DNA of 64,000 bases from Apostichopus japonicus (Eukaryota; Echinodermata; Holothuroidea; Aspidochirotida; Stichopodidae): positions 1,617,501-1,681,500 of the forward strand of contig NC_092570.1 of NCBI RefSeq assembly GCF_037975245.1, read 5' to 3'. Positions 2,773-63,562 of this stretch are shown one piece after another. Both the position numbers and the translations under genes were made by a program. Position 1 is the stretch's first letter. Every line of letters begins with the position of its first letter. Under the pieces are notes generated by a model that made no database searches, was not told where the DNA came from, and was given only the letters and a program-made list of their open reading frames with translations.

Positions 2773-5007
2773 ATGGCCTGCCCAACGCCTTGGAAAGACA
2801 TCGCAGATACATTCTTCGAATGTTCAATTTGTTTGGATCTGTTTAAAGAACCGAAACTCTTACCATGTCTGCATAGATTCTGTAAACAATGTCTGGAACC
2901 TATACTAGAAGGACAGGCTAATGGGACATTTGAATGTCCTCTTTGTAAAGATGTCTGTAAAATACCAAACGATAGAGTCGATGGATTCAAGACTGACTTC
3001 CATATGAAAAGTATGCTGCAGTTTATTCAGCTACAGAAAACATTTGAAAACAAAGAAGAGAGAGAATGTATTGGCTGTGAAGAGAAGTTAAAGGTTACAG
3101 CGTACTGTTTTATGTGTAAAGAATTTCTTTGTGTTCAGTGTTATCAATTTCATTTGACCAAGAAGATATTTGTCAAACATCGGAAACACGTATTAGCTCT
3201 GAATGATCTCGAGGGGAAAAGTCTGACACAAGAAAAACTTGCATCATTGATGGAAGCTCCTAGGTGCCATATTCACCCGGAACACATGGCTCAGTTGTGT
3301 TGTTGTACATGCGGAAACCTCCCAGTTTGTGTGACATGTATTTTTGATGAACACAAAGGTCATGAACTTCGTGACGTCAGGAAAGTAGCAAACGACGAAA
3401 GGGAACACTTGAAGGAGATATTGGAAGAACTTGTAAAACGTAAAGATACTGTATTCAACATTGCTGATAAAATCAACAGAGTGAATAATGACGTTCTGTC
3501 CATTGTCGCTGAAACTAAAGCAAAATGGAAAACACAGTACGAAGATCAGACCAGGAAGTTACGGAATAAGAAAGAGAAAGAAAAGAGAGAACTCGACAGA
3601 TTCAAAACAGTTCTTGAAAAAAGGACTCGAAAAGAGTTGAAAGAATTAGAAACAGAAATGGAAGAGAAAATTAGAAAAATAAGAGACGAGTACGACAGAT
3701 TGATTAAAATCAAAATAAGAGAATCAAAGGAGAAAGAGGACACCAAAAGAAATGAAATAGAAAACAGAGAATTCAAGATTGACGAAACAATGAACCGACT
3801 TGATGCGGTAATGAATGAGAAAAATAAAACAATAGACGAACAACAGCAACGCAAGTTTAGAAAAACACAAAACTTATCAGATCTCTGTAATCAATGGGTC
3901 AATAAATTTGAAAATGTGTCTATTATATCTACGAGTGTCCTTGAATCACATAATCACTGGACAGAAGCACAGTGTATTCCTGATATAAGAGCAGCTAGTG
4001 AACCACTTGTTGAGGATGGAATGAAAGATTTTCCTGAAATAGAATCTTTATCTGATATAACAATTGATGATTTACCAATATTGTGTATTGATAGCGTACA
4101 TATATCGGTTAATGCAGAATCTGTTGTTGATGTTGATGTGATCAAATCTCGTTGGTTTTGGTTAACTGGTATAACAAGTACTGGCTCTGGTAACATCGTC
4201 ATCTCTGGGAGATTATCACATGCCCATTCATTTATCACAGTCATAAACAGACAAGGACGTCAGATTCGTCATAACAAGATAGATAAAGGCAAAGGGAGCT
4301 CTTTTCAACCCTTTCGTCACTGTGCTGCTTTATCACGTGATAATATAGCTTCGGTTTGTGAATCCAATCAGGTTGTTGTTTATAATATTCATGATGGGTC
4401 CTTTACTCAAAATAACATCACGTCCCTCTTTGATGACATCAATGCGGGGGATGCGAAGTATGCGACTTGTATAACTACTGATACTAAACGTGGCCACATC
4501 ATTGTAGGTACATCACGAAAGATTGGATTGCTATTTATATTTGATGAAGAATTTAATTTCATTCGAGCTCTGAAGCTACCAGAGGTTATAAAATGGTCAA
4601 GAGATATCCTTTATCATGAAGGCGTTCTGCTGATATGCGATGAAGAGAGTAGATGTGCATACGCTGTAACCATGGATACATCTAAAACAGAAGCAGAGTT
4701 ACTATACAAGCTTCCGAAACCAGATATTGACGGACTAACTTGGTATCCTTCGAGTATATGTAAAGACAGGGCAGGTTTTGTATACATCTTGTGGTCAGAT
4801 AGACAGTTAGGTAGTGGAAAAGATATGATCACACAGTACAGTCAAGATGGTCAGCAGTTGTTGACAACCAAACAGACAGAAGATGGAGCAGAATGTATGA
4901 CCACAATGATGACAGAGGAGGGAGAGAAGCTACTTGTAGCTACAAAATGGTCAGGAAAGATGTTTTGTTATGGTCTGGTGAGTATATCTCAGTGTTTCTT
5001 ATTTTAA
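2773..5007 (+). CDS. TRIM-like RING/B-box/coiled-coil/beta-propeller protein, copy 1
   Basis: The open frame has 744 codons. A C3HC4 RING lies at residues 17-58 (C17, C20, C32, H34, C37, C40, C55, C58), which in this family binds E2 and transfers ubiquitin. B-box 1 is at about 99-139 and B-box 2 at about 165-197. A long, highly charged coiled coil at about 205-395 would dimerise. A beta-propeller-like domain (NHL-like) fills about 445-735. The layout recalls TRIM56 or TRIM-NHL proteins. A strong splice donor (CTG then GTGAGT) at 4977/4978 and an acceptor at 5555 suggest the mature protein leaves exon 2 after residue 735 and ends with Met-Pro-Glu (stop 5565-5567); without splicing it ends at 5007. 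Variable loops: SDRQLGSGKDM at 675-685 and KGKGSSFQPF at 505-514. The frame is intact, but the family's TATA promoter is absent upstream. Confidence 0.85.
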   Translation: MACPTPWKDIADTFFECSICLDLFKEPKLLPCLHRFCKQCLEPILEGQANGTFECPLCKDVCKIPNDRVDGFKTDFHMKSMLQFIQLQKTFENKEERECIGCEEKLKVTAYCFMCKEFLCVQCYQFHLTKKIFVKHRKHVLALNDLEGKSLTQEKLASLMEAPRCHIHPEHMAQLCCCTCGNLPVCVTCIFDEHKGHELRDVRKVANDEREHLKEILEELVKRKDTVFNIADKINRVNNDVLSIVAETKAKWKTQYEDQTRKLRNKKEKEKRELDRFKTVLEKRTRKELKELETEMEEKIRKIRDEYDRLIKIKIRESKEKEDTKRNEIENREFKIDETMNRLDAVMNEKNKTIDEQQQRKFRKTQNLSDLCNQWVNKFENVSIISTSVLESHNHWTEAQCIPDIRAASEPLVEDGMKDFPEIESLSDITIDDLPILCIDSVHISVNAESVVDVDVIKSRWFWLTGITSTGSGNIVISGRLSHAHSFITVINRQGRQIRHNKIDKGKGSSFQPFRHCAALSRDNIASVCESNQVVVYNIHDGSFTQNNITSLFDDINAGDAKYATCITTDTKRGHIIVGTSRKIGLLFIFDEEFNFIRALKLPEVIKWSRDILYHEGVLLICDEESRCAYAVTMDTSKTEAELLYKLPKPDIDGLTWYPSSICKDRAGFVYILWSDRQLGSGKDMITQYSQDGQQLLTTKQTEDGAECMTTMMTEEGEKLLVATKWSGKMFCYGLVSISQCFLF

Positions 5008-5555
5008 TATTACTAGATATTACAGGATACTCTGATGTACGACGTTGAAAGGGTACAATAAATTGGGACAATATCGCCAAGGATATTATCTTAATGTATT
5101 GGCTTTATGTATGACCAAATAGTGTGCTATTTTAATAACTTTAAAGATAGTTTTCGATTAACTTTAGCTCAAGTAATAGTAGAAGTTATTTCCCAAAGCC
5201 AATATACATGAAACTAAAGTGAACAACTTGTTCACCATTACCTAAACGGATTCTTAAAACAAAGATTAAAGAATTCTAACGAGATCATGGTATTGTTGTT
5301 GCCAAGACTTCGCAATGCCAACTTAAGTTGATTTAAGAGAAATAAAACAACAACAAAAACAGAAAAGTGAACAGAATAGGCAAAAAGGGAAGAAGAAAAG
5401 GCAAGAAAAGAACAGAAAAGAAGGGATTTGTTTGCTGAAAGACGTAACACAAACAATCTACATCTAACATGACTTGTTTTAGCATTCTAAATGTACTTCA
5501 AACGTATAGAGAACTGAATCAACGTTTGTAACATTATAAATGTTCTTTCCAACAG

Positions 5556-5936: not shown

Positions 5937-6088
5937 GGACTGTAGTACTCGCGTCGGAGATCAAATTCCGTGAAACTTAAAAATTCTATCCAAGGTGGTA
6001 AAATGAATTTATTGAAAGTATCACAACTATTTGTTTTATTGCAAGACCGTGTTAATTTTGTGTGCGTGCGTGTGACGCCTTGCTTGCA

Positions 6089-6665
6089 AACACGATATCT
6101 CAAGAAGTGAAGCTTGGACAATCTAAAATTTCGTGTGTAGAAGAACCTCATGTAGGAGTAAGAGCCAATTATTTTGGTGAAGATCATATGTCATTTGAGG
6201 TCACCAGTGGTCAAATTGTGAAACCTTGTAAACACGATGTCCCAAGAAAAGAAACATTGACCAATATCATATTTCGTGTGTAGAAGTAACACATTCAGTA
6301 GAATAAGCCTATTGGTTGTTGTGTACGTCAATGTTATTTGGGGTCACTAGGGGTCAAATAGTGAAACCATGACAACATGATATCTCTAGAAGAAAAGCTG
6401 GTACCAATCTCATATATAGTGTGAATGAGTAACACATTGATTAGAAGCAGCCTATTGTTTAGAGTGACGGTCAAAGTTCGTTTGGGTTCACTAGGGGTAC
6501 AATTGTGAAAACCCCCATTAATTAACACGATATCTCAAGAAGTAGAGCTTGGACCAATCACATATTTTGTGTGAAGTACAACATTGAGTAGAAAAAGCCA
6601 ATTGGTTTTTGTGGCGGTCAGCGGTAATATGGAGTCACCAGAGGTCAAATTGTTGAAACCGTGTT
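6089..6665. repeat. Minisatellite downstream of copy 1, four 140-160 bp units
   Basis: Units begin with CACGATATCTCAAGAAG-like sequence at about 6091, 6233, 6376 and 6536. Each carries a GCTTGGACCAAT block, an ATTTCGTGTGT block, and GGTCA repeats at its end. The last unit grades into the spacer near 6665. The same block follows copies 2, 3, 4, 5, 7 and 8. Confidence 0.8.
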
Positions 6666-9535: not shown

Positions 9536-11550
9536 TTGCTCAATACATTGACACCCAAATCAGCAACTGGGGATTTCCATTATTATATTATTCAGCTACA
9601 GAAAACATTTGAAAACAAAGAAGAGAGAGAATGTATTGGCTGTGAAGAGAAGTTAAAGGTTACAGCGTACTGTTTTATATGTAAAGAATTTCTTTGTGTT
9701 CAGTGTTATCAATTTCATTTGACCAAGAAGATATTTGTCAAACATCAGAAACACGTATTAGCTCTGAATGATCTTGAGGGGAAAAGTCTGACACAAGAAA
9801 AACTTGCATCATTGATGGAAGCTCCTAGGTGCCATATTCACCCGGAACACAAGGCTAAGTTGTGTTGTTGTACATGCGGAAACCTCCCAGTTTGTTTGAC
9901 ATGTACGTATGATGAACACAAAGGTCATGAACTTCGTGACGTCAGGAAAGTGGCGAACGACGAAAGGGAACACTTGAAGGAGATATTGAAAGAACTTGTA
10001 AAACGTAAAGATTCTGTATGCAACTTTGCTGATAAACTCAACAGAGTGAATAACGACGTTCTGTCCATTGTCGCTGAAACTAAAGTAAAATGGAAATCAC
10101 AGTACGAAGATCAGACCAGGAAGTTACAGAATGAAAAAGAGAAAGAAAAGAGAGAATTCAACAGATTCAAAACAGTTCTTGAAGAAAGTACTCGACACAT
10201 AATGAAAGAATTAGAAACAGAAATGGAAGAGAAAATTAGAAAAATAAGAGACGAGTACGACAGAATGATTAAACTTAAAATTAGGCAATCAAAAGAGAAA
10301 GAGGACACCAAAAGAAATGAAATCGAAAACAGAGAATTTAAGATTGACGAAACAATTAACCGACTTGATGCAGTCATGAATGAGAGAAATAAAACAATAG
10401 AAGAACAACAGCAACGCAAGCTTAGAGAAACACAAAACTTATCAGATCTCTGTAATCAATGGGTCAATAAATTTGAAAATGTGTCTACTATATCTTCGAG
10501 TGTCCTTGAATCGTATAACCACTGGACAGACGCGCAGTGTATTCCTGATATAAGAGCAGCGAGTGAACCTCTTGTTGAGAATATAATGAAAGATTTTCCT
10601 GAAATAGAATCTTTATCTGATATAACAATGGATGATTTACCAATATTGTGTATTGATAAAGTACATATATCGGATCATGTAGAATCTGTTGATGTTGATG
10701 TGATCAAAGCTAAATGGTTTTGGTTAATTGGTATAACAAGTACTGGCTCTGGTAACATCGTCATCTCTGGAAGATTATCATTGGACCATTCATTTATCAC
10801 AGTCATAAACAGACAAGGACGTCAGATTCGTCATAACAAGATAGATAAAGGCAAAGGGGGCTCTCTTTATCCCAATCGTCACTGTGCTGCTTTATCACAT
10901 GATAGGATAGCTTCAGTTTGTGAATCCAATCAGGTTGTTGTTTATAATATTCAAGATGGGTCCTTTACTCAAAATAACATCACGTCCCTCTTTGATGACA
11001 TCAAAACGGTGGATGAGAAGTATGCGGCTCGTATAACTACTGATACTAAACGTGGACACATCATTGTAGGTACATCACGAAAGATTGGATTGCTATTCAT
11101 GTTTGATGAAGAATTGAATTTCATTCGAGCTCTGAAGCTGCCAGAGGTTATAAAATTGTCAGGAGATATCCTTTATCATGAAGGCGTTCTGCTGATATGC
11201 GATGAAGAGAGTAGATGTGCATACGCTGTAACCATGGATACATCTAAAACAGAAGCAGAGTTATATACGAGCTTCCGAAACCAGATATTGACGGACTGAA
11301 TTGGTATCCTTTGAGTATATGTGCAGACAGGGCAGGTTTTGTATACATCTTGTGGTCATCGAGGACAACATATCCTGTAAAATGTATCATCACACAGTAC
11401 AGTCAAGATGGTCAGCAGTTGTTGACAACCAAACGGACAGAAGATAGAGCATTGATGACAGAGGAGGGAGAGCAGCTACTTGTAGCTATAGTGTCAGGAA
11501 AGATACTTTTTTATGGTCTGGTGAGTTTATCACAGTGTTTCCTATTGTAA
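9536..11550 (+). pseudogene. Copy 2 of the TRIM-like gene: RING deleted, C-terminal frameshift
   Basis: A deletion of about 1.4 kb (junction near 9580-9592) joins the upstream spacer directly to codon 85 of the family. It removes the promoter, exon 1, intron 1 and the RING. It left an open in-frame start, MLNTLTPKSATGDFHYYI, ahead of the B-box region. B-boxes and coiled coil are intact. A one-base deletion near 11262 breaks the frame in the propeller after 11299-equivalent sequence, and the rest of the propeller continues in another frame (11311-11550), with a further 15-base in-frame loss. Loop types are KGKGGSLYPN and SSRTTYPVKCI. The splice donor after CTG at 11520 and the exon 3 acceptor at 12113 remain. 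A RING-less B-box protein is possible if transcribed, but no family promoter is present. Confidence 0.8.
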
Positions 11551-12113
11551 TATTACTAGATATCACATGCAGGATACTCTGATGTAACGACAATGAAAGG
11601 ATACATTAAACTGGGACAATATCGCCAAGGATATTATCTTAATGTATTGGCTTTATGTATGACCAAATAGTGTGCTATTTTAATAACTTTAAAGATAGTT
11701 TTCGATTAATTTTAGCTCAAGTAATAGTAGAAGTTATTTCCCAAAGCCAATATACATGAAACTAAAGTGAACAACTTGTTCACTATTACCTAAACGGATT
11801 CTTAAAACAGATTAAAGAATTCTAACGAGATCATGGTATTGTTGTTGACAAGACTTCGCAATGCCAACTTAAGTTGATTTAAAAAATAAAACAGAAATAA
11901 ATAAACAACAACAAAAACAGAAAAGTGAACAGAATAGGCAAAAAGGAAAGAAGAAAAAACAAGAAAAGAACAGAAAAGAAGTGATTTGTTTGCTGAAAAA
12001 CGTAACACAAATAATCTACAACTAACATGACTTGTTTGAGCATTCTAAATGTACTTCAAACGTATCTAGAACTGGATCAACGTTTGTAACTTTATAAATG
12101 TTCTTTCCAACAG

Positions 12114-16280: not shown

Positions 16281-18503
16281 ATGGCATGCCCTTCTCCTTG
16301 GAAAGACATCGCAGATACATTCTTCGAATGTTCAATTTGTTTGGATCTGTTTAAAGAACCGAAACTCTTACCATGTCTGCATAGATTCTGTAAACAATGT
16401 CTGGAACCCATACTAGAAGAACAGGCTGATGGGACATTTGAATGTCCTCTTTGTAAAGATGTCTGTAAAATACCAAACGATAGAATCGATGGATTCAAGA
16501 CTGACTTCCATATGAAAAGTATGCTGCAGTTTATTCAGCTACAGAAAACATTTGAAAACAAAGAAGAGAGAGAATGTATTGGCTGTGAAGAGAAGTTAAA
16601 GGTTACAGCGTACTGTTTTATGTGTAAAGAATTTCTTTGTGTTCAGTGTTATCAATTTCATTTGACCAAGAAGATATTTGTCAAACATCAGAAACACGTA
16701 TTAGCTCTGAATGATCTTGAGGGGAAAAGTCTCACAAAAGAAAAACTTGCATCATTGATGGAAGCTCCTAGGTGCCATATTCACCCCGAACACAAGGCTA
16801 AGTTGTGTTGTTGTACTTGTGGAAACCTCCCAGTCTGTTTGACATGTACGTATGATGAACACAAAGGTCATGAACTTCGTGACGTCAGAAAAGTGGCGAA
16901 CGACGAAAGAGAACACTTGAAGGAGATATTGGAAGAACTTGTAAAACGTAAAGATACTGTATTCAATTTTGCTGATAAAATCAAAAGAGTGAATAATGAC
17001 GTTCTGTCCATTGTCGCTGAAACTAAAGCAAAATGGAAATCACAGTACGAAGATCAGACCAGGAAGTTACAGAATAAGAAAGAGGAAGAAAAGAGAGAAT
17101 TCAACAGATTCAAAACAGGTCTTGAAGAAAGTACTCAACAGATCATGAAAGAATTAGAAACAGAAATGGAAGAGAAAATTAGAAAAATAAGAGACGAGTA
17201 CGACAGATTGAAGAAAATCAAAGTTAGGGAATCAAAAGAGGAAGAGGACAACAAAAGAAATGAAATAGAAAATAGAGATATAAAGATTGACGAAACAATT
17301 AACCGACTTGATGCAGTAATGAATGAGAGAAATAAAACAATAGACGAAAAACAGCAACGCAAGCTTAGAGAAACACAAAACTTATCAAATCTCTGTAATC
17401 AATGGGTCAATAAATTTGAAAATGTGTCTACTTTATCTTCGAGTGTCCTTGAATCATATAACCACTGGACAGACGCACAGTGTATTCCTGATATAAGAGC
17501 AGCGAGTGAACTTTTGGTTGAGGATATAATGAAAGATTTTCCTGAAAAAGAATCTTTCTCTGATATAACAATTGATGATTTACCAATATTGTGTATTGAT
17601 AGAGTACATATATCGGATAATGTAGAATCTGTTGTTCATGTTGATGTGATCAAAGCTAAATGGTTTTGGTTAACTGGTATAACAAGTACTGGCTCTGGTA
17701 ACATCGTCATCTCTGGAAGATTATCATCTGACCATTCATTTATCACAGTCATAAACAAACAAGGACGTCAGATTCGTCATAACAAGATAGATAAAGTTAA
17801 AGGGCGCTCTCTTCAACACTTTCGTCACTGTGCTGCTTTATCACGTGATAAGATAGCTTCGGTTTGTGAATCCAACCAGGTTGTTGTTTATAATACTCAA
17901 GATGGGTCCTTCACTCAAAATAACATCACGTCCCTCTTTGATGACATCAAAACAGTGGATAGAAAGTATGCGACTTGTATAACTACTGATACTTTACGTG
18001 GCCACATCATTGTAGGTACAAATAGAAATACTGGATTGGTATTTATATTTGATGAAGAATTGAATTTCATTCGAGGTCTGAAGCTACCAGAGGTTATAAA
18101 ATGGTCAAGAGATATCCTTTATCATAAAGGCGTTCTGCTGATATGCGATTCAGAGAGTAGATGTGCATGCGCTGTAACCATGGATACATCTAAAACAGAA
18201 GCAGAGTTACTATACGAGCTTCCGGAACCAGATATTGACGGACTGACTTGGTGTCCTTACAGTATATGTGCAGACAGGGCAGGATATGTCTACATCTTGT
18301 GGCATAGTGCTGGAACAAAGTGTATCATCACACAGTACAGTCAAGATGGTCAGCAGTTGTTGACAACCAAACGGACAGAATGTACAGCACGGTGTATGAC
18401 AACATTGATGACAGAGGAGGGAGAGAAGCTACTTGTAGCATCATGGTCAGGAAAGATGCTTTGTTATGGTCTGGTGAGTTTATCTCAGTGTTTCTTATTT
18501 TAA
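16281..18503 (+). CDS. TRIM-like RING/B-box/coiled-coil/beta-propeller protein, copy 3
   Basis: The open frame has 740 codons. RING cysteines and histidine match copy 1 (C17 to C58, same length through QADGTF). Both B-boxes and the long charged coiled coil are complete. Propeller loops differ from its neighbours: KVKGRSLQHF in the first variable loop, a short HSAGTKCI in the last, and TNRNTGLVF in the middle. The exon 2 donor is at 18473/18474. With exon 3 (acceptor ends 19046) the protein would end with Met-Pro-Glu at 19058. The complete promoter, exon 1, exon 3 and AATAAA make this one of the best candidates for an expressed member. Role by family: cytoplasmic E3 ligase; the substrate is unknown. 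Confidence 0.87.
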   Translation: MACPSPWKDIADTFFECSICLDLFKEPKLLPCLHRFCKQCLEPILEEQADGTFECPLCKDVCKIPNDRIDGFKTDFHMKSMLQFIQLQKTFENKEERECIGCEEKLKVTAYCFMCKEFLCVQCYQFHLTKKIFVKHQKHVLALNDLEGKSLTKEKLASLMEAPRCHIHPEHKAKLCCCTCGNLPVCLTCTYDEHKGHELRDVRKVANDEREHLKEILEELVKRKDTVFNFADKIKRVNNDVLSIVAETKAKWKSQYEDQTRKLQNKKEEEKREFNRFKTGLEESTQQIMKELETEMEEKIRKIRDEYDRLKKIKVRESKEEEDNKRNEIENRDIKIDETINRLDAVMNERNKTIDEKQQRKLRETQNLSNLCNQWVNKFENVSTLSSSVLESYNHWTDAQCIPDIRAASELLVEDIMKDFPEKESFSDITIDDLPILCIDRVHISDNVESVVHVDVIKAKWFWLTGITSTGSGNIVISGRLSSDHSFITVINKQGRQIRHNKIDKVKGRSLQHFRHCAALSRDKIASVCESNQVVVYNTQDGSFTQNNITSLFDDIKTVDRKYATCITTDTLRGHIIVGTNRNTGLVFIFDEELNFIRGLKLPEVIKWSRDILYHKGVLLICDSESRCACAVTMDTSKTEAELLYELPEPDIDGLTWCPYSICADRAGYVYILWHSAGTKCIITQYSQDGQQLLTTKRTECTARCMTTLMTEEGEKLLVASWSGKMLCYGLVSLSQCFLF

Positions 18504-23632: not shown

Positions 23633-25860
23633 ATGGCATGCCCGTCGCCTTGGAAAGACATGGCAGATACATTCTTCGAATGTTCAATTTGTTTGGATCT
23701 GTTTAAAGAACCGAAACTATTACCATGTCTGCATAGATTCTGTAAACAATGTCTGGAACCTATATTAGAAGGACAGGCTGGAACATTTGAATGTCCTCTT
23801 TGTAAAGATGTCTGTAAAATACCAAACGATAGAATCGATGGATTCAAGACTGACTTCCATATGAAAAGTATGCTGCAGTTTGTTCAGCTACAGAAAACAT
23901 TTGAAAACAATGAAGAGAGAGAATGTATTGGCTGTGAAGAGAAGTTAAAGGTTACAGCGTACTGTTTTATGTGTAAAGAATTTCTTTGTGTTCAGTGTTA
24001 TCAATTTCATTTGACCAAGAAGATATTTGTCAAACATCAGAAACACGTATTAGCTCTGAATGATCTTGAGGGGAAAAGTCTCACACAAGAAAAACTTGCA
24101 TCATTGATGGAAGCTCCTAGGTGCCATATTCACCCGGAACACATGGCTCAGTTGTGTTGTTGTACATGCGGAAACCTCCCAGTTTGTGTGACATGTACGT
24201 ATGAGGAACACAAAGGTCATGAACTTCGTGACGTCAGGAAAGTGGCGAACGACGAAAGGGAACACTTGAAGGAGATATTGGAAGAACTTGTAAAACGTAA
24301 AGATACTGTATCCAACATTGCTGATAAACTCAACAGAGTTAATAATGACGTTCTGTCCATTGTCGCTGAAACTAAAGTAAAATGGAAATCACAGTACGAA
24401 GATCAGACCAGGAAGTTACAGAATGAGAAAGAGAAAGAAAAGAGAGAATTCAACAGATTCAAAACAGGTCTTGAAGAAAGTACTCGAAACAAAAAGAAAG
24501 AATTAGAAACAGAAATGGAAGAGAAAATTAGAAAAATAAGAGACGAGTACGACAGAATGAAGAAAATCAAAGTTAGGGAATCTAAAGAGAAAGAGGACAC
24601 CAAACGAAATGAAATAGAAAATAGAGAATTAAAGATTGACGAAACAATGTCCAAACTTGATGCGGTAATGAATGAGAGAAATAAATCAATAGACGAGCAA
24701 CAGCAACGCAAGCTTAGAGAAACACAAAACTTATCAGATCTCTGTAATCAATGGGTCAATAAATTTGAAAATTTGTCTACTATATCTTCGAGTGTCCTTG
24801 AATCGTATAACCACTGGACAGACGCACAGTGTATTCCTGATATAAGAGCAGCGAGTGAACCTCTTGTTGAGGATATAATGAAAGATTTTCCAGAAATAGA
24901 ATCTTTATCTGATATAACAATGGATGATTTACCAATATTGTCTATTGATAAAGTACATATATCGGATAATGTAGAATCTGTTGTTGATGCTGATGTGATC
25001 AGAGATAAATGGTTTTGGTTATCTGGTATAACAAGTACTGGCTCTGGTAACATCGTCATTTCTGGGAGATTATCATTTGACCATTCATTCATCACAGTCA
25101 TAAACAAACAAGGACGTCGGATTAGTCATAACAAGATAGATGAAGGCAAACGGATTCGTCTTCCCTTTCGTCACTGTGCTGCTTTATCACGTGATAAGAT
25201 AGCTTCGGTTTGTGAATCCAATCAGCTTGGTGTTTATGATATTCGTGATGGGTCCTTTACTCAAAATAACATCACGTCCCTCTTTGATGACTTCGAAACG
25301 GTGGATGGGAAGTATGCGACTTGTATAACTACTAATACTAAACGTGGCCACATCATTGTAGGTACATCACGAAGATTGGATTGCTATTTACATTTGATGA
25401 AGACTTGAATTTCATTCGAGCTCTGAAGCTGCCAGAGGTTATAAAATGGTCAAGAGATATCCTTTACCATGAAGGCGTTCTGCTGATATGCGATACAGAG
25501 AGTAGATGTGCATACGCTGTTACCATTGATATATCTAAAACAGAAGTAGAGTTACTATACGAGCTTCCGAAACCAGATATTGACGGACTGACTTGGTCTC
25601 CTTGGAGTATATGTAAAGACAGGGCAGGCTTTGTATACATCTTGTGGTCACAAGAACAGGGTAGTACTACTAAACGTATCATCACACAGTACAGTCAAGA
25701 TGGTCAGCAGTTGTTGACAACCAAACGGACAGAACACAGAGTAAGGTGTATGACAACATTGATGACAAAGGATGGAGAGAAGCTACTTGTAGCTACATCG
25801 TGGTCAGGAAAGATGTTTTGTTATGGTCTGGTGAGTATATCTCAGTGTTTCTTAGTTTAA
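23633..25860 (+). pseudogene. Copy 4 of the TRIM-like gene, broken by one base
   Basis: Nearly identical to copy 8, including the loop types EGKRIRLPF and SQEQGSTTKRI and the RDKWFWLS segment. RING (C17 to C57; one residue shorter than copy 1 through QAGTF), both B-boxes and coiled coil are intact. A single A is missing near 25372, in CGAAGATTGG where copy 8 has CGAAAGATTGG. This shifts the frame, so the first frame ends at 25408 and the rest of the propeller continues in another frame from 25381 to 25860. The exon 2 donor is at 25830/25831. Only one lesion was found, so it may be young or polymorphic in the species. If translated, it would yield a ligase lacking roughly the last quarter. Confidence 0.82.
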
Positions 25861-35452: not shown

Positions 35453-37714
35453 ATGGCATGCCCATCGCCTTGGAAAGACATCGCAGATACATTCTTCGAA
35501 TGTTCAATTTGTTTGGATCTGTTTAAAGAACCGAAACTATTACCATGTCTGCATAGATTCTGTAAGCAATGTCTGGAACCTATATTAGTAGGACAGGCTG
35601 GGACATTTGAATGTCCTCTTTGTAAAAATGTCTGTAAAATACCAAACGATAGAATCGATGGATTCAAGACTGACTTCCATATGAAAAGTATGCTGCAGTT
35701 TATTCAGCTACAGAAAACATTTGAAAACAAAGAAGAGAGAGAATGTATTGGTTGTGAAGTGAAGTTAAAGGTTACAGCGTACTGTTTTATATGTAAAGGA
35801 TTTCTTTGTGTTCAGTGTTATCAATTTCATTTGACCAAGAAGATGTTTGTCACACATCAGAAACACTTATTAGCTCTGAATGATCTTGAGGGGAAAAGTC
35901 TCACACAAGAAACACTTGCATCATTGATGGAAGCTCCTAGGTGCCATATTCACCCGGAACACATGGCTCAGTTGTGTTGTTGTACATGCGGAAACCTCCC
36001 AGTTTGTGTGACATGTACGTATGATGAACACAAAGGTCATGAACTTCGTGACGTCAGGAAAGTGGCGAACGCCGAAAGGGAACACTTGAAGGAGATATTG
36101 GAAGAACTTGTAAAACGTAAAGATACTGTATTCAACATTGCTGATAAAATCAAAAGGGTGAATATTGACGTTCTGTCCATTGTCGCTGAAACTAAAGCAA
36201 AATGGAAAACACAGTACGAAGATCAGACCAGGAAGTTACAGAATGAGAAAGAAAGAGAAAAGAGAGAATTCAACAGATTCAAAACAGTTCTTGAAGAAAG
36301 TACTCGACACATAATGAAAGAATTAGAAACAGAAATGGAAGAGAAAATTAGAAAAATAAGAGACGAGTACGACAGAATGATTGAAATCAAAATTAGGGAA
36401 TCAAAAGAGAAAGAGGACACCAAAAGAAATGAAATCGAAAACAGAGAATTAAAGATTGACGAAACAATTAACCGACTTGATGCAGTAATGAATGAGAGAA
36501 ATAAAACAATAGACGAACAACAGCAACGCAAGCTTAGAAAAACACAAAACTTATCAGATCTCTGTAATCAATGGGTCAATAAATTTGAAAATGTGTCTAT
36601 TATATCTTCGAGTGTCCTTGAATCATATAACCACTAGACAGACGCACAGTGTATTCCTGATATAAGAGCAGCGAGTGAACCTCTTGTTGAGGATATAATG
36701 AAAGATTTCCCTGAAATAGAATCTTTATCTGATATAACAAGGGATGATTTACCAATATTGTGTATTGATAGAGTACATATATCGGATAATATAGAATCTG
36801 TTGTTGATATTGATGTGATTAAAGCTCATGGTTTTTTTTTTAATGGTATAACAAGTACCGGATCTGGTTACATCGTCATCTCTGGGTCATTATCATCAGA
36901 CCAATCATTTATCACTGTCATAAACAGACGAGGACGTCAGATTCGTCATAACAAGATAGATAAAGGCAAAGGGAGCCCTTATTTCCCCAGTCGTCACTGT
37001 GCTGCTTTATCACGTGATAAGATAGCTTCGGTTTGTGAATCCAATCAGGTTGGTGTTTATAATATTCAAGATGGGTCCTTTACTCAAAATAACATCACGT
37101 CCCTCTTTGATGACATCGAAACGGTGGATAGGAAGTATGCGACTTGTGTAACTACTGATCCTAAACGTGGCCACATCATTGTAGGTACACGAAATACTGG
37201 ATTGCTATTCATATTTGATGAAGAATTGAATTTCATTCGAGCTCTGAAGCTGCCAGAGGTTATAAAATGGCCAAGAGATATCCTTTATTATGAAGGCGTT
37301 CTGCTGATATGCGATTCAGAGAGTAGATGTGCATACGCTCTAACCATGGATACATCTAAAACAGAGGCAGAGTTACTATACGAGCTTCCGAAACCAGATA
37401 TTGACGGACTGACTTGGTCTCCTTCGAGTATATGTAAAGACAGGGCAGGTTTTGTATACATCTTGTGGTTACATATAAAGTTTCTTTCTAGAAAAAGTAT
37501 CATCACACAGTACAGTCAAGATGGTCAGCAGTTGTTGACAACCAAACGGACAGAAGATAGAGCAGGGTGTATGACAAAATTGATGACAGAGGAGGGAGAG
37601 AAGCTACTTCTAGCTACATCATGGTCAGGAAAGATGTTTTGTTATGGTCTGGTGAGTATATCTCAGTGTTTCTTATTTCAATATTACTATATATTACAGG
37701 ACACTCTGATGTGA
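35453..37714 (+). pseudogene. Copy 6 of the TRIM-like gene: exon 2 cassette with one nonsense codon
   Basis: RING, B-boxes and coiled coil are complete, but the family's TGG (Asn-His-Trp-Thr) is TAG at 36635-36637, ending the frame after 394 codons. The propeller frame is open again downstream (from Met at 36698). Loop types are KGKGSPYFPS and LHIKFLSRKSI, with a divergent KAHGFFFN segment. Both flanks are deleted: no promoter or exon 1 upstream, and no exon 3 or polyadenylation signal downstream (the jump into spacer sequence is near 37752). The unspliced stop shared by the others is changed to CAA, while the GTGAGT donor at 37652 is kept, which supports that tail being intronic in the family. 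Likely not expressed; it could still donate sequence by gene conversion. Confidence 0.82.
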
Positions 37715-40808: not shown

Positions 40809-43037
40809 ATGGCCTGCCCGTCGCCTTGGAAAGACATGGCAGATGCATTCTTCGAATGTTCAATTTGTTTGGATCTGTTTAAAGAACCGAAACTATTACC
40901 ATGTCTGCATAGATTCTGTAAACAATGTCTGGAACCTATATTAGAAGGACAGGCTGGAACATTTGAATGTCCTCTTTGTAAAGATGTCTGTAAAATACCA
41001 AACGATAGAATCGATGGATTCAAGACTGACTTCCATATGAAAAGTATGCTGCAGTTTGTTCAGCTACAGAAAACATTTGAAAACAATGAAGAGAGAGAAT
41101 GTATTGGCTGTGAAGAGAAGTTAAAGGTTACAGCGTACTGTTTTATATGTAAAGAATTTCTTTGTGTTCAGTGTTATCAATTTCATTTGACCAAGAAGAT
41201 ATTTGTCAAACATCAGAAACACGTATTAGCTCTGAATGATCTTGAGGGCAAAAGTCTCACACAAGAAAAACTTGCATCATTGATGGAAGTTCCTAGGTGC
41301 CATATTCACCCGGAACACATGGCTCAGTTGTGTTGTTGTACATGCGGAAACCTCCCAGTTTGTGTGACATGTACGTATGATGAACACAAAGGTCATGAAC
41401 TTCGTGACGTCAGGAAAGTGGCGAACGACGAAAGGGAACACTTGAAGGAGATATTGGAAGAACTTGTAAAACGTAAAGATACTGTATTCAACATTGTTGA
41501 TAAAATCAAAAGAGTTAATAATGATGTTCTGTCCATTGTCGCTGAAACTAAAGTAAAATGGAAAACACAGTACGAAGATCAGACCAGGAAGTTACGGAAT
41601 AAGAAAGAGGAAGAAAATAGAGAATTCGACAGATTCAAAACAGTTCTTGAAGAAAGTACTCGACACAAAATAAGAGAATTAGAAACAGAAATGGAAGAGA
41701 AAATTAGAAAAATAAGAGACGAGTACGACAGAATGATTAAAATTAAAATTAGGCAATCAAAAAAGAAAGAGGACACCAAAAGAAATGAAATCGAAAACAG
41801 AGAATTAAAGATTGACGAAACAATTAATCGACTTGATGCGGTAATGAATGAGAGAAATAAAACAATAGAAGAACAACAGCAACGCAAGCTGAGAGAAACA
41901 CAAAACTTATCAGATCTCTGTAATCAATGGGTCAATAAATTTGAAAATGTGTCTACTATATCTTCGAGTGTCCTTGAATCATATAACCACTGGACAGACA
42001 CACAGTGTATTCCTGATATAAGAGCAGCGATTGAACCTCTGGTTGAGGATATAATGAAAGATTTTCCTGAAATAGAATCTTTATCTGATATAACAATGGA
42101 TGATTTACCAATATTGTGTATTGATAGCGTACATATATCGGATAATGTAGAATCTGTTGTTGATGTTGATGTGATCAAAGCTAAATGGTTTTGGTTAACT
42201 GGTATAACAAGTACTGGCTCTGGTAACATCGTCATCTCTGGGTCATTATTATTAGACCAATCATTTATCACAGTCATAAACAGACAAGGACATCAGATTA
42301 GTCATAACAAGATAGATTGCAAACGGGGGTCTGGTTTTCCCTTTCGTTACTGTGCTGCTTTATCACGTGATAAGATAGCTTCGGTTTGTGAATCAAATCA
42401 GGTTGGTGTTTACAATATTCAAGATGGGTCCTTTACTCAAAATAACATCACGTCCCTCTTTGATGACATCAATACGGTGGATTCGAAGAATGCGACTTGT
42501 ATAACTACTGATACTTTACGTGGCCACATCATTGTAGGTACATCACGAAATTCTGGATTGCTATTTATATTTGATGAAGAATTTAATTTCATTCGAGCTC
42601 TGAAGCTGCCAGAGGTTATAAAATGGTCAAGAGATATCCTTTATCATAAAGGCATTCTGCTGATATGCGATGAAGAGAGTAGATGTGCATACGCTGTAAC
42701 CCTGGATACATCTAAAACAGAAGCAGAGTTACTATACGAGCTTCCGAAACCAGATATTGACGGACTGACTTGGTATCCTTCGAGTATATGTAAAGACAGG
42801 GCAGGTTTTGTATACATCTTGTGGTCAGATAGACAGTTAGGTAGTGGAAACGATATGATCACACAGTACAGTCAAGATGGTCAGCAGTTGTTGACAACCA
42901 AACGGACAGAAGATAGAGTAGGGTGTATGACAACATTGATGACAGAGGAGGGAGAGAAGCTACTTGTAGCTACATCATATGCAGGAAAGATGTTTTGTTA
43001 TGGTCTGGTGAGTATATCTCAGTGTTTCTTATTTTAA
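40809..43037 (+). CDS. TRIM-like RING/B-box/coiled-coil/beta-propeller protein, copy 7
   Basis: The open frame has 742 codons, with complete RING (C17 to C57), B-boxes and coiled coil. The last variable loop is SDRQLGSGNDM, almost the copy 1 type, but the first loop is the different CKRGSGFPF and the strand before it reads SLLLDQSF. So this copy combines loop types found separately elsewhere. The exon 2 donor is at 43017/43018 and the acceptor ends at 43597 (GCAACAG), so splicing would end the protein with Met-Pro-Glu at 43609. Promoter, exon 1, exon 3 and AATAAA are all present, making it a strong candidate for an expressed gene. Confidence 0.87.
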   Translation: MACPSPWKDMADAFFECSICLDLFKEPKLLPCLHRFCKQCLEPILEGQAGTFECPLCKDVCKIPNDRIDGFKTDFHMKSMLQFVQLQKTFENNEERECIGCEEKLKVTAYCFICKEFLCVQCYQFHLTKKIFVKHQKHVLALNDLEGKSLTQEKLASLMEVPRCHIHPEHMAQLCCCTCGNLPVCVTCTYDEHKGHELRDVRKVANDEREHLKEILEELVKRKDTVFNIVDKIKRVNNDVLSIVAETKVKWKTQYEDQTRKLRNKKEEENREFDRFKTVLEESTRHKIRELETEMEEKIRKIRDEYDRMIKIKIRQSKKKEDTKRNEIENRELKIDETINRLDAVMNERNKTIEEQQQRKLRETQNLSDLCNQWVNKFENVSTISSSVLESYNHWTDTQCIPDIRAAIEPLVEDIMKDFPEIESLSDITMDDLPILCIDSVHISDNVESVVDVDVIKAKWFWLTGITSTGSGNIVISGSLLLDQSFITVINRQGHQISHNKIDCKRGSGFPFRYCAALSRDKIASVCESNQVGVYNIQDGSFTQNNITSLFDDINTVDSKNATCITTDTLRGHIIVGTSRNSGLLFIFDEEFNFIRALKLPEVIKWSRDILYHKGILLICDEESRCAYAVTLDTSKTEAELLYELPKPDIDGLTWYPSSICKDRAGFVYILWSDRQLGSGNDMITQYSQDGQQLLTTKRTEDRVGCMTTLMTEEGEKLLVATSYAGKMFCYGLVSISQCFLF

Positions 43038-48369: not shown

Positions 48370-48537
48370 GTGTGTAGTGTTCGGTTTCGATATACCTGAT
48401 ATCGGAAATATCTGCTATTTTTCATTTCCTTCAACCAAGTTTTATGATAGCCATTATAAGAGGTTGCAATATTTCTACACCAATAAATTAACTGTGTCTG
48501 AATTTTAGAAAATTTCCTCACCAACATTCTTCATCAT

Positions 48538-52236: not shown

Positions 52237-54465
52237 ATGGCCTGCCCGTCGCCTTGGAAAGACATGGCAGATACATTCTTCGAATGTTCAATTTGTTTGG
52301 ATCTGTTTAAAGAACCGAAACTATTACCATGTCTGCATAGATTCTGTAAACAATGTCTGGAACCTATATTAGAAGGACAGGCTGGAACATTTGAATGTCC
52401 TCTTTGTAAAGATGTCTGTAAAATACCAAACGATAGAATCGATGGATTCAAGACTGACTTCCATATGAAAAGTATGCTGCAGTTTGTTCAGCTACAGAAA
52501 ACATTTGAAAACAATGAAGAGAGAGAATGTATTGGCTGTGAAGAGAAGTTAAAGGTTACAGCGTACTGTTTTATGTGTAAAGAATTTCTTTGTGTTCAGT
52601 GTTATCAATTTCATTTGACCAAGAAGATATTTGTCAAACATCAGAAACACGTATTAGCTCTGAATGATCTTGAGGGGAAAAGTCTCACACAAGAAAAACT
52701 TGCATCATTGATGGAAGCTCCTAGGTGCCATATTCACCCGGAACACATGGCTCAGTTGTGTTGTTGTACATGCGGAAACCTCCCAGTTTGTGTGACATGT
52801 ACGTATGATGAACACAAAGGTCATGAACTTCGTGACGTCAGGAAAGTGGCGAACGACGAAAGGGAACACTTGAAGGAGATATTGGAAGAACTTGTAAAAC
52901 GTAAAGATACTGTATTCAACATTGCTGATAAACTCAACAGAGTTAATAATGACGTTCTGTCCATTGTCGCTGAAACTAAAGTAAAATGGAAATCACAGTA
53001 CGAAGATCAGACCAGGAAGTTACAGAATGAGAAAGAGAAAGAAAAGAGAGAATTCAACAGATTCAAAACAGGTCTTGAAGAAAGTACTCGAAACAAAATG
53101 AAAAAATTAGAAACAGAAATGGAAGAGAAAATTAGAAAAATAAGATACGAGTACGACAGAATGAAGAAAATCAAAGTTAGGGAATCTAAAGAGAAAGAGG
53201 ACACCAAACGAAATGAAATAGAAAATAGAGAATTAAAGATTGACGAAACAATGAACAAACTTGATGCGGTAATGAATGAGAGAAATAAATCAATAGACGA
53301 GCAACAGCAACGCAAGCTGAGAGAAACACAAAACTTATCAGATCTCTGTAATCAATGGGTCAATAAATTTGAAAATTTGTCTACTATATCTTCGAGTGTC
53401 CTTGAATCATATAACCACTGGACAGACGCACAGTGTATTCCTGATATAAGAGCAGCGAGTGAACCTCTTGTTGAGGATATAATGAAAGATTTTCCTGAAA
53501 TAGAATCTTTATCTGATATAACAATGGATGATTTACCAATATTGTCTATTGATAGCGTACATATATCGGATAATGTAGAATCTGTTGTTGATGCTGATGT
53601 GATCAGAGATAAATGGTTTTGGTTATCTGGTATAACAAGTACTGGCTCTGGTAACATCGTCATTTCTGGGAGATTATCATTTGACCATTCATTCATCACA
53701 GTCATAAACAAACAAGGACGTCGGATTAGTCATAACAAGATAGATGAAGGCAAACGGATTCGTCTTCCCTTTCGTCACAGTGCTGCTTTATCACGTGATA
53801 AGATAGCGTCGGTTTGTGAATCCAATCAGCTTGGTGTTTATGATATTCGTGATGGGTCCTTTACTCAAAATAACATCACGTCCCTCTTTGATGACTTCGA
53901 AACGGTGGATGGGAAGTATGCGACTTGTATAACTACTGATCCAATAAGTGGCAACATCATTGTAGGTACATCACGAAAGATTGGATTGCTATTTACATTT
54001 GATGAAGAATTGAATTTCATTCGAGCTCTGAAGCTGCCAGAGGTTATAAAATGGTCAAGAGATATCCTTTACCATGAAGGCGTTCTGCTGATATGCGATA
54101 CAGAGAGTAGATGTGCATACGCTGTTACCATTGATATATCTAAAACAGAAGTAGAGTTACTATACGAGCTTCCGAAACCAGATATTGACGGACTGACTTG
54201 GTCTCCTTGGAGTATATGTAAAGACAGGGCAGGCTTTGTATACATCTTGTGGTCAGAAGAACAGGGTAGTACTACTAAACGTATCATCACACAGTACAGT
54301 CAAGATGGTCAGCAGTTGTTGACAACCAAACGGACAGAAGACAGAGTAAGGTGTATGACAACATTGATGACAAAGGAGGGAGAGAAGCTACTTGTAGCTA
54401 CATCGTGGTCAGGAAAGATGTTTTGTTATGGTCTGGTGAGTATATCTCAGTGTTTCTTAGTTTAA
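52237..54465 (+). CDS. TRIM-like RING/B-box/coiled-coil/beta-propeller protein, copy 8
   Basis: The open frame has 742 codons, with complete RING (C17 to C57), both B-boxes and coiled coil. It is the intact sister of copy 4, with the same loops (EGKRIRLPF, SEEQGSTTKRI) and the same RDKWFWLS segment. Small differences include a Ser in place of the otherwise conserved Cys after RH (RHSAALS) and DPISGN in place of DTKRGH. The exon 2 donor is at 54435/54436. The acceptor ends at 55016 and exon 3 reads ATG CAA GAA TAA, so the end would be Met-Gln-Glu instead of Met-Pro-Glu. Promoter, exon 1, exon 3 and AATAAA are present. Confidence 0.87.
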   Translation: MACPSPWKDMADTFFECSICLDLFKEPKLLPCLHRFCKQCLEPILEGQAGTFECPLCKDVCKIPNDRIDGFKTDFHMKSMLQFVQLQKTFENNEERECIGCEEKLKVTAYCFMCKEFLCVQCYQFHLTKKIFVKHQKHVLALNDLEGKSLTQEKLASLMEAPRCHIHPEHMAQLCCCTCGNLPVCVTCTYDEHKGHELRDVRKVANDEREHLKEILEELVKRKDTVFNIADKLNRVNNDVLSIVAETKVKWKSQYEDQTRKLQNEKEKEKREFNRFKTGLEESTRNKMKKLETEMEEKIRKIRYEYDRMKKIKVRESKEKEDTKRNEIENRELKIDETMNKLDAVMNERNKSIDEQQQRKLRETQNLSDLCNQWVNKFENLSTISSSVLESYNHWTDAQCIPDIRAASEPLVEDIMKDFPEIESLSDITMDDLPILSIDSVHISDNVESVVDADVIRDKWFWLSGITSTGSGNIVISGRLSFDHSFITVINKQGRRISHNKIDEGKRIRLPFRHSAALSRDKIASVCESNQLGVYDIRDGSFTQNNITSLFDDFETVDGKYATCITTDPISGNIIVGTSRKIGLLFTFDEELNFIRALKLPEVIKWSRDILYHEGVLLICDTESRCAYAVTIDISKTEVELLYELPKPDIDGLTWSPWSICKDRAGFVYILWSEEQGSTTKRIITQYSQDGQQLLTTKRTEDRVRCMTTLMTKEGEKLLVATSWSGKMFCYGLVSISQCFLV

Positions 54466-55401: not shown

Positions 55402-55547
55402 CTGTACTCGCGTCGGAGATCCAATTCCATGACATTTTAAAATTCTATCCAAGATTGTAAAATGAATTTATTGAAAGCATCAGAACTATTTGTTTTATTG
55501 CAAGACCATGTTTATTTTGTGTGTGTGCATGTGACGCCTTGCTTGTA

Positions 55548-56112
55548 AACACGATATCTCAAGAAGTGAAGCTTGGACAATATAAAATTCGTGTGTAGGA
55601 GAACCTCATTTAGGAGTAAGAGCCAATTATTTTGGTGGAGATCATATGTCATTTGAGGTCACCAGAGGTCAACTTGTGAAACCTTGTAAACACGATATCC
55701 CAAGAAAAGAAGCTTTGACCAATATATATTTCGTGTTTATAGAGTAACACATTCAGTAGAATAAGCCTATTGGTTGTTGTGAACGACAAAGGTCATTTGG
55801 GGTCACTAGGGGTCAAATAGTGAAACCCTGTGAACACGATATCTCAAGAAGAAAAGCTTGTACCAATCTCATAATGAGTACCACATTGGTTAGAAGCAGC
55901 CTATTGTTTAGAGTGATGGTCAAAGTTCGTTTGGGTTCACTAGGGGTACAATTGTGAAAACCCGGGTAAACACGATATCTCAAGAAGGAGAGCTTGGACC
56001 AATCACATATTTCGTGTGAAGTACAACATTGGGTAGAAGAAGCCAATAGGTTTTGGTGGCGGTCAACGGTAATATGAAGTCACCAGAGCTCAAATTGTTG
56101 AAACCGTGTTTC
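55548..56112. repeat. Minisatellite downstream of copy 8
   Basis: Four units. The half-site triplet recurs at 55790-55815 as AGGTCA, GGGTCA and GGGTCA with the same four-base gaps. Confidence 0.8.
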
Positions 56113-61338: not shown

Positions 61339-63562
61339 ATGGCCTGCCCTTCGCCTTGGAAAGACATCGCAGATACATTCTTCGAATGTTCAATTTGTTT
61401 GGATCTGTTTAAAGAACCGAAACTATTACCCTGTCTGCATAGATTATGTAAACAATGCCTGGAACCTATATTAGAAGGACAGGCTGATGGGACATTTGAA
61501 TGTCCTCTTTGTAAAGATGTCTGTAAAATACCAAACGATAGAATCGATGGATTCAAGACTGACTTCCATATGAAAAGTATGCTGCAGTTTATTCAGCTAC
61601 AGAAAACATTTGAAAACAAAGAAGAGAGAGAATGTATTGGTTGTGAAGAGAAGTTAAAGGTTACAGCGTACTGTTTTATATGTAAAGGATTTCTTTGTGT
61701 TCAGTGTTATCAATTTCATTTGACCAAGAAGATGTTTGTCACACATCAGAAACACTTATTAACCTTGAATGATCTTGAGGGGAAAAGTCTCACACAAGAA
61801 AAACTTGCATCATTGATGGAAGCTCCTAGGTGCCATATTCACCCGGAATATATGGCTCAGTTGTGTTGTTGTACATGCGGAAACCTCCCAGTTTGTGTGA
61901 CATGTACGTATGATGAACACAAAGGTCATGAACTTCGTGACGTCAGGAAAGTGGCGAACGACGAAAGAGAACACTTGAAGGAGATATTGGAAGAACTTGT
62001 AAAACGTAAAGAAACTATTCAACTTTGCTGATAAACTCAACAGAGTGAATAATGATGTTCTGTCCATAGTCGCTGAAACTAAAGAAAAATGGAAATCACA
62101 GTACGAAGATCAGACCAGGAAGTTACAGAATAAGAAAGAGGAAGAAAAGAGAGAATTCAACAGATTCAAAACAGTTCTTGAAGAAAGTATTCAACAGATC
62201 ATGAAAGAATTGGAAACAGAAATGGAAGAGAAAATTAGAAAAATAAGAGACGAGTACGACAGAATGATTAAAATAAAAATAAGGGAATCAAAAGAGAAAG
62301 AGGACACCAAAAGAAATGAAATCGAAAACAGAGAATTAAAGATTGACGAAACAATTAACCGACTTGATGCAGTCACGAATGAGAGCAATAAAACAATAGA
62401 CGAACAACAGCAACGCAAGCTTAGAGAAACACAAAACTTATCAGATCTCTGTAATCAATGGGTCAATAAATTTGAAAATGTGTCTACTATATCTTCGAGT
62501 GTCCTTGAATCATATAACCACTGGACAGACGCACAGTGCATTCCTGATATAAGAGCAGCGAGTGAACCTCTTGTTGAGGATATAACGAAAGATTTTCCTG
62601 AAATAGAATCTTTATCTGATATAACAATGGATGATTTACCAATATTGCATATTGATAGAGTACATATGTCGGATCATGTAGACACTGTTGTGGATGTTGA
62701 TGTGATCACAGCTGATCGTTTTTTTTTAACTGGTATAACAAGTACTGGCTCTGGTAATATTGTCATCTCTGGGAGATTATCACGTGACTATTCATTTATC
62801 ACAGTCATAAACAGACAAGGACGTCAGATTCGTCATCACAAGATAGATAAAGGCAAAGGGAGCTCTTTTCAACACTTTCGCCACTGTGCTGCTTTATCAC
62901 ATGATACGATAGCTTCGGTTTGTGAATCCAATCAGGTTGGTGTTTATAATATTCAAGATGGGTCCTTTACTCAAAATAACATCACGTCCCTCTTTGATGA
63001 CATCAAAACGGTGGATAGGAAGTATGCGACTTGTATAACTACTGATACTTTACGTGGCCACATCATTGTAGGTACACGGATTACTGGATTGCTATTTATA
63101 TTTGATGAAGAATTGAATTTCATTCGAGCTCTGAAGCTGCCAGAGGTTATAAAATTGTCAAGAGATATCCTTTATCATGAAGGAGTTCTGCTGATATGCG
63201 ATTTAGAGAGTGGATGTGCATGCGCTGTAACCTTGGATACATCTAAAACAGAAGCAGAGTTACTATACGAGCTTCCGAAACCAGATATTGACGGACGGAC
63301 TTGGTATCCTTCGAGTATATGTAAAGACAGGGCAGGTTTTGTATACATCTTGTGGTATGGTACTAACAGACGTATCATCACACAGTACAGTCAAGATGGT
63401 CAGCAGTTGTTGACAACCAAACGGACAGAATATCCAGCAGTATGTATGACAACATTGATGACAGAGAAGGGAGAGAAGCTACTTGTAGTTACAGCTACAC
63501 CATATCCAGGAAGGATGCTTTGTTATGGTCTGGTGAGTATATCTCAGTGTTTCTTATTTTAA
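61339..63562 (+). pseudogene. Copy 9 of the TRIM-like gene, broken by a two-base deletion
   Basis: RING is complete apart from Phe36 replaced by Leu; the B-boxes are of the copy 5 type. Near 62014 two bases (GT) are missing compared with copy 5 (GAAACTATTC against GAAACTGTATTC). The frame ends at 62031, early in the coiled coil, and continues in another frame from about 62045 to 63562. The C-terminal third is nearly identical to copy 5 (YGTNRRI, EYPAVC, VTATPYPGRM), but the first loop is KGKGSSFQHF, closer to copies 1 and 3, and TADRFFLT is its own. The exon 2 donor is at 63532/63533; exon 3 lies beyond the window. A single lesion suggests recent loss. Confidence 0.82.

Follow-up and report, generated by a model that had tools for sequence, protein, structure and literature searches.

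An expanded TRIM gene family of the sea cucumber Apostichopus japonicus with positive selection on one face of a predicted NHL-type propeller

In the genome of the sea cucumber Apostichopus japonicus, a stretch of 64,000 nucleotides (the window; C10:1617501-1681500 in an assembly of 671.58 Mb and 35 contigs) carries nine copies of one TRIM gene, which an initial annotation, made from the sequence alone, described as a uniform array with hypervariable loops in a C-terminal propeller. The question raised by this locus is whether these loops have been diversified as a recognition surface or simply tolerate change. In the reading that we favour, with a probability of about two in three, the genes belong to an expanded repertoire of E3 ligases in which the RING-bearing effector end stays constant while a ligand site on the upper face of the propeller has been diversified, and which works like the finTRIM and TRIM5 proteins and like the fungal HNWD proteins. 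What we establish directly is a gene family with a conserved RING, positive selection across this family, the placing of the selected sites on one face of a predicted model, exchange of segments between the copies of contig C10, and intact copies standing beside broken ones. Published work is cited by PMC number.

The nine copies announced for the window are all present, head to tail on the + strand, but the real array is larger than described. Indeed, it extends over C10:1620270-1717372 with 14 copies, nine of them intact, and five of the 14 (four intact) lie downstream of the window on the same contig. Comparison of the window with itself showed repeated blocks of ~4-7 kb at 89-96% identity. 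Five of the nine window copies (1, 3, 5, 7 and 8) are intact, with an uninterrupted coding region of ~2.2 kb in a single coding exon, and the other four (2, 4, 6 and 9) are broken; the claim that length changes are always in frame therefore stands for the loops but fails for the genes. The copies are as follows.

Copy 1: 2773..5007, + strand, intact, with RING, B-boxes, coiled coil and predicted six-bladed propeller in a single coding exon.
Copy 2: 9588..11552 (end approximate), + strand, broken; it starts at the equivalent of residue ~84, its RING is gone, and there is a 1-base deletion near residue 641.
Copy 3: 16281..18503, + strand, intact; it departs from the copy L016, ~74 kb downstream, at 10 of 2220 aligned coding bases.
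Copy 4: 23633..25860, + strand, broken by a 1-base deletion near residue 580.
Copy 5: 30986..33208, + strand, intact.
Copy 6: 35453..37714, + strand, broken by an in-frame TAG at 36635-36637.
Copy 7: 40809..43037, + strand, intact; reference for residue numbering and for the structure model.
Copy 8: 52237..54465, + strand, intact; it departs from the copy L011 at 17 of 2226 aligned coding bases.
Copy 9: 61339..63562, + strand, broken by a 2-base deletion near residue 225.

The genome was searched with four protein queries (window copy 7, L060, L061 and L059), in each case scoring the best 60-61 of 764-1043 candidates. We found at least 130 distinct related places, and for at least 108 of them one search or more shows a full-length, open copy. 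As lower bounds, there are 44 places on contig C17, 30 on C1, 20 on C2, 18 on C20, 14 on C10, and one each on C22, C9, C4 and C11. Broken and partial places were marked by hand, and three C17 places that showed a stop in earlier searches were counted as open, being stop-free in a later one. The members fall into at least two tiers, one at least 77% identical to window copy 7 and the other at ~40%. From the tier of the window we kept 37 intact paralogues, each with a start and at least 690 codons in open frame, out of 40 rows; L012, L015 and L017 were dropped as repeats of window copies, and L046, which was retained, stops some residues early. Trees were built without identical rows, leaving 36 distinct propellers and 33-36 rows per piece.

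On C1, at 17.0-17.3 Mb and 21.3-21.5 Mb (L007, L008, L059), two TRIM genes each have a near-identical partner 4.2-4.3 Mb away: the partner of L059 is 99% identical, and L007 and L008 differ by a few residues. These pairs reflect either a recent large duplication or a false duplication of the assembly. If they are false, they would lend some colour to the view that the copies and their frameshifts come from the assembly itself, by false haplotype duplication or unpolished errors. For the family we find this view hardly credible, as the blocks of the window are ~4-11% apart over several kb and ordered in tandem, and the A. japonicus assembly is described as a HiFi one (PMC10344927).

We then come to the proteins, whose two ends are, in copy 7:

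RING, residues 17-57: 40857..40979, + strand, C3HC4 type.
Propeller, residues 441-735: 42129..43013, + strand, six blades with a predicted NHL-type fold.

The RING keeps all eight C3HC4 zinc ligands in 37/37 intact paralogues. An alignment of 37 members, named A1 (34 from among the 37 intact genes in the tier of the window, and three from the 40% tier), was compared with domain libraries. The RING matches PF00097 in every member of A1 and is closest to those of TRIM2, TRIM3 and TRIM56 among solved chains. B-boxes (PF00643, E-values up to 1) were likewise found in 37/37 members; copies 1, 5 and 7 have two stretches each, the curated cut-off being passed by copies 1 and 7 and missed by copy 5 by 0.1 bit. 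Long helices are predicted at residues 201-298 and 304-389, in agreement with a TRIM coiled coil, and the predicted structure of the C-terminal part is a six-bladed propeller of NHL type. We did not detect NHL repeats by sequence, neither as PF01436 in copies 1, 5 and 7 (E-values up to 10) nor among the 25 of 45 families listed for A1, although the same library detects NHL in L002, a canonical TRIM of this genome, at 5e-29. Nor was SPRY or PRY present in the full lists for copies 1, 5 and 7 or among the same 25 of 45 families, and neither NACHT nor WD40 figured among the families for copies 1, 5 and 7 (E-values up to 10).

Both sets of variable loops that had been reported were found in all nine copies. 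Between VYILW and ITQYSQDG, copies 1-9 read SDRQLGSGKDM, SSRTTYPVKCI, HSAGTKCI, SQEQGSTTKRI, YGTNRRI, LHIKFLSRKSI, SDRQLGSGNDM, SEEQGSTTKRI and YGTNRRI; after NKID, they read KGKGSSFQPF, KGKGGSLYPN, KVKGRSLQHF, EGKRIRLPF, ESKGSYPDPN, KGKGSPYFPS, CKRGSGFPF, EGKRIRLPF and KGKGSSFQHF. Among the 37 paralogues, the mean pairwise amino-acid difference reaches 0.645 at 43 selected sites (which were picked for varying), compared with 0.118 for the propeller's lower half and 0.097 for the RING. The comparison of upper with lower loops as classes is independent of that pick, and here mean entropy is 1.19 versus 0.47 (P 6e-8). The set of residues at the 43 positions is distinct in 36 of the 37 genes.

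The ratio of nonsynonymous to synonymous divergence (dN/dS) was first computed pairwise over the 37 genes, and it rises from 0.22 in the RING through 0.32 in the B-boxes and 0.49 in the coiled coil to 1.08 in the propeller. For the nine intact C10 genes the values are 0.12, 0.27, 0.58 and 1.04, respectively, with a synonymous divergence (dS) that is similar along the parts (RING 0.107, B-boxes 0.089, coiled coil 0.101, propeller 0.091), which indicates that the N-terminal end is kept uniform by purifying selection and not by homogenisation. The uniformity initially ascribed to this whole end is thus borne out for the RING but not for the coiled coil.

Site models applied to the 36 distinct propellers gave twice the log-likelihood difference (2dlnL) of 665 (M1a/M2a) and 655 (M8a/M8), with 16-18% of sites at an omega (dN/dS) of 5. 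Thirds of the propeller on their own trees gave 99-330 (M1a/M2a), and single blades on their own trees 25-142. Rate matrices were clipped for the single-blade and null fits; the fits of the whole propeller and of the thirds were unclipped and gave overflow warnings. Could these values be due to relaxed constraint and gene conversion, the loops tolerating any residue while recombination and alignment gaps mislead the models? Since the copies recombine, we simulated codon data without a selected class and with a different tree for every 15 codons. Such data do inflate the test, the whole propeller reaching 2dlnL of 45-105 and omega of 2-2.5 in four replicates. The blades of the simulated sets gave 0-27 in 24 fits, made with a coarser grid than the real ones, and the real value of every blade was above its own four nulls. 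The simulated sets are more divergent than the real one (0.145-0.173 versus 0.106). Counted without any tree, the upper loops of the 37 genes have a dN/dS of 1.78 (codon bootstrap 1.29-2.48), and removal of all columns three or fewer from any gap leaves it at 1.80 (1.08-2.86). The lower loops of the same domain stand at 0.60, and the strands at 1.31 (upper half) and 0.44 (lower half). Eleven independent recent pairs (overall dS 0.005-0.10) give a dN/dS of 1.87 (1.39-2.56) for the upper half and 0.54 (0.36-0.82) for the lower. Based on the own-tree models, the null simulations and the tree-free counts, we reject relaxed constraint and recombination artefact for the family, and consider this explanation improbable.

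Some observations set limits to this result or speak for relaxed constraint with gene conversion. For the nine intact C10 genes alone, dN/dS of the upper loops is 1.27 (0.81-2.04), which is not significantly above 1. Positive selection is therefore carried by members of the family that lie outside the window; taken alone, the window and its array are no proof of it, and within C10 alone relaxed constraint is not rejected. The expectation that loop dN/dS exceeds 1 is therefore confirmed for the family and not for this array. Recombination is also clear in C10, and dS is raised too in the C10 upper loops, 0.159 versus 0.058-0.077 in the remaining propeller, as if the loops had been brought in from more distant copies or had changed by several bases at once. 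Finally, the function proposed from the start was "possibly immune", and we keep it at that strength.

The N-terminal end was submitted to the same models. We obtained 2dlnL of 7.9 with one site for the RING and B-boxes, and 28.7 with three sites for the coiled coil, where residues 211, 227 and 253 (copy 7) have a posterior of 0.95 for omega above 1. As propeller-blade nulls reach 27, close to the value for the coiled coil, we do not claim selection at this end.

In a propeller, the loops D-A and B-C lie on one face and the loops A-B and C-D on the other. The selected sites should then reveal, on the structure predicted for copy 7, whether a single face is concerned. We classified 42 of the 45 M8 columns, those left out being residue 440 and two columns of inserts that copy 7 lacks; the site list by blade had 28 of 30 classified, with the same omissions. 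Thirty of the 42 sites map to D-A or B-C loops, 11 to strands and only one to a lower (A-B or C-D) loop. The upper half of the predicted propeller contains 40 of the 42, for 158 of 295 positions (Fisher P 4e-10), so that in this model the variable sites share one face, the point that the initial annotation had put forward for checking, and are not scattered. The commonest length differences are also found at or near upper loops, residues 673-676 being absent in 22 genes and 579-581 in 9-20; the remaining ones concern one to five genes each, some within strands. The twelve loops of the predicted upper face are, in copy 7:

Loop D6-A1, residues 453-460: 42165..42188, + strand; selected 456 and 458-460.
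Loop B1-C1, residues 481-483: 42249..42257, + strand; selected 482, plus 479 at the end of strand B.
Loop D1-A2, residues 504-512: 42318..42344, + strand; the NKID loop given above.
Loop B2-C2, residues 528-530: 42390..42398, + strand; selected 528 (whole-propeller and thirds models).
Loop D2-A3, residues 547-561: 42447..42491, + strand; selected 559 and 561.
Loop B3-C3, residues 579-583: 42543..42557, + strand; selected 579, with length differences.
Loop D3-A4, residues 600-608: 42606..42632, + strand; selected 606.
Loop B4-C4, residues 622-625: 42672..42683, + strand; selected 622.
Loop D4-A5, residues 645-655: 42741..42773, + strand; selected 653, plus 656 and 658 near the top of strand A.
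Loop B5-C5, residues 674-681: 42828..42851, + strand; the VYILW loop, with the highest test value by blade and the commonest length differences.
Loop D5-A6, residues 701-703: 42909..42917, + strand; selected 703, plus 705.
Loop B6-C6, residues 723-726: 42975..42986, + strand; selected 723 and 724.

A second subfamily, on C17, gave the same pattern. Its genes played no part in finding the selected sites, although L060 was among the 37 rows behind the structure model. In L060 and five relatives, which are 73-81% identical, dN/dS is 1.11 in the upper loops and 0.32 in the lower ones, 1.28 in the upper strand halves and 0.41 in the lower, and the variability of sites correlates with that seen in the tier of the window (rho 0.38). 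On inclusion of three members that are more distant, we obtained 1.13 for the upper loops, 0.35 for the lower loops and 0.84 for the upper strand halves.

Exchange between copies was assessed by the compatibility of near and far sites. In C10, near sites are more compatible than far ones (0/300 permutations) for the whole gene, the N-terminal part and the propeller. The same 0/300 was obtained for the whole gene and the N-terminal part in the 37-gene set and in a set of ten C1 genes, but for the propellers neither the 37 genes together (249/300 permutations at or below the observed value) nor the ten C1-block genes (23/300) reached significance. The claim of propeller exchange therefore rests on C10. 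Scans for the closest copy, in windows of 150 bases, gave a patchwork. Copy 1 is closest to L013 (98-100%) over about residues 424-670 and mostly to other copies elsewhere; in copy 7, the part that begins at about residue 573 and runs to the end is closest to L049 (97-100%), and what precedes it mostly to others; copies 5 and 9 are mutually closest (97-99%) towards the two ends, with about residues 249-523 excepted. The B5-C5 loop is nearly identical in copies 1 and 7, whose D1-A2 loops differ, and the same holds for copies 5 and 9. This patchwork shows exchange directly, and loops are accordingly reassorted between copies.

How does this family compare with known systems? Like finTRIM and primate TRIM5alpha, it is an expanded TRIM family with positive selection on loops of a C-terminal binding domain; here 15.7% of sites are concerned, and in the B30.2 domain of finTRIM, M2a places 15.6% of sites above 1 (PMC2657112). 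However, the binding domain is a predicted NHL-type propeller here and a B30.2 sandwich there, and finTRIM genes belong to teleosts whereas ours are invertebrate genes with a single coding exon. The HNWD genes het-d, het-e and het-r of Podospora anserina have their selected codons in the d-a loop and the b-c turn, at the top of the propeller in the model of HET-E, and exchange sequence between members (PMC1805685). Our family resembles them in the two loop types and in exchange, but theirs is a WD40 propeller on a NACHT protein, and HNWD repeats are nearly identical within and between genes. With the TRIM-NHL proteins (TRIM2, TRIM3, TRIM71/LIN41, Brat, Mei-P26, Thin) it shares the propeller fold, as predicted, but neither a Pfam NHL match in the copies and listed families given above nor a slow pace, the family here being large and fast-evolving. 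NHL TRIMs belong to group 1. The TRIMs outside the recent SPRY set have been described as this conserved group (PMC2533329), and TRIM2/3/32/45/56/71 as subfamily C (PMC3503706).

Echinoderm TRIM expansion has been reported in the purple sea urchin, with 140 annotated TRIM genes; when sea urchin coelomocytes respond to ultraviolet B (UVB), TRIM-like genes rank with those of strongest induction (PMC13043383). This induction fits a role in stress or defence in the phylum, by analogy. Unlike our family, no hypervariable propeller face and no NHL is mentioned in the excerpts of that account. Among the matches listed from the open-access literature, there was no description of a hypervariable or selected NHL-type face in echinoderm TRIMs, and a term search of the main text of a sea cucumber genome preprint on expanded families returned neither TRIM nor tripartite (PMC13228809).

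The RING, B-boxes and coiled coil of TRIM proteins serve dimer formation and ubiquitin transfer. We infer ligase activity, cellular location, the nature of the ligand and an immune role, and propose the following mechanism. The genes would make up an expanded repertoire, encoded in the germline, of RING E3 ligases that presumably act in the cytosol, with the RING, two B-boxes and coiled coil as the constant effector end. The C-terminal six-bladed NHL-type propeller would offer a ligand site made of the D-A and B-C loops of its blades. Duplication within and between chromosomes, segment exchange and positive selection on the loops would supply new binding faces; a copy that happened to bind a foreign or selfish molecule could oligomerise on it and either ubiquitinate it or signal. 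A constant ligase end and a variable propeller face, in many copies turned over by duplication, exchange and decay, would then be the design of a diversified recognition repertoire. We regard it as an even bet that the more than 100 germline E3 ligases make up an anticipatory repertoire inside the cells of an animal that lacks rearranging antibodies, the twelve loops on one NHL-type face acting as the variable region and being reshuffled by gene conversion.

The most likely ligand would be a microbial or viral protein or RNA. RNA is a candidate, since NHL domains bind it with their upper face in Brat and LIN41 and this face evolves fast (PMC5908797). Proteins are no less likely as ligands, since the net charge of the upper loops ranges from -5 to +7 and is mostly near zero (17 genes). 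The RNA binding of Brat and LIN41 also speaks for targets that are endogenous selfish elements, such as transposon or endogenous viral RNA or proteins, in an arms race with the genome's own parasites, and the A. japonicus genome consists of 47% repeats, 27% being long terminal repeat (LTR) elements (PMC10344927). The upper loops are not consistently positive in charge, and we hold such targets to be rather unlikely. Self/non-self or gamete recognition, as performed by the fungal het-d and het-e propellers, would explain the choice of the same two loop types with exchange between copies (PMC1805685); with more than 100 loci, not a few, it is decidedly improbable.

So far, the fast-evolving immune TRIMs known are vertebrate B30.2 proteins, the other TRIMs being held to be a conserved group (PMC2533329). 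If the repertoire is indeed of the anticipatory kind, diversified recognition in the cytosol would have one more scaffold next to B30.2 and WD40. For a large invertebrate family, an NHL-type face of such variability would mean that another diversifying binding scaffold has been joined to the TRIM effector end, and that evolution picked the same propeller loops as in fungal allorecognition. In an animal that lacks adaptive immunity, the family offers candidates for recognition inside the cell that can be put to direct test.

Another cluster was found at 31.73-31.82 Mb of C9 (L004, L005), with RING, B-boxes and coiled-coil-like sequence. The open frames of these two members, the ones read, have ~425 codons and no obvious 300-residue propeller; several TRIM architectures may have expanded in this genome.

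Around the array, ~5 kb directly upstream of the window consist of N, and the 20 kb after the array hold two open frames of at least 200 codons that by eye are not TRIM-like, no further search being made. Rfam and tRNA scans of the window gave no match, and no consensus promoter motifs were found. A T-rich stretch ending in ACAG lies ~20 bases before the ATG in 8/8 copies that retain the region (1, 3, 4, 5, 6, 7, 8 and 9):

T-rich stretch ending in ACAG: 40774-40788, + strand, 20 bases 5' of the ATG of copy 7.

By its sequence it suggests a possible 3' splice site of an untranslated first exon, in which case promoters are probably further upstream. A degenerate tandem repeat with a unit of ~145 bases follows several copies on their 3' side and belongs to the duplicated block:

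Degenerate ~145-base tandem repeat: 6088-6660, 12741-13219, 19567-20061, 26940-27425, 34322-34654 and 55544-56109.

Finally, positions 44393-48534 of the window are mostly without a repeat elsewhere in it, and their guanine-cytosine (GC) fraction is higher (0.434 at 44001-48000 versus 0.33-0.37 in the other 4-kb windows); this segment either was inserted into one block or is left over from the ancestral locus.

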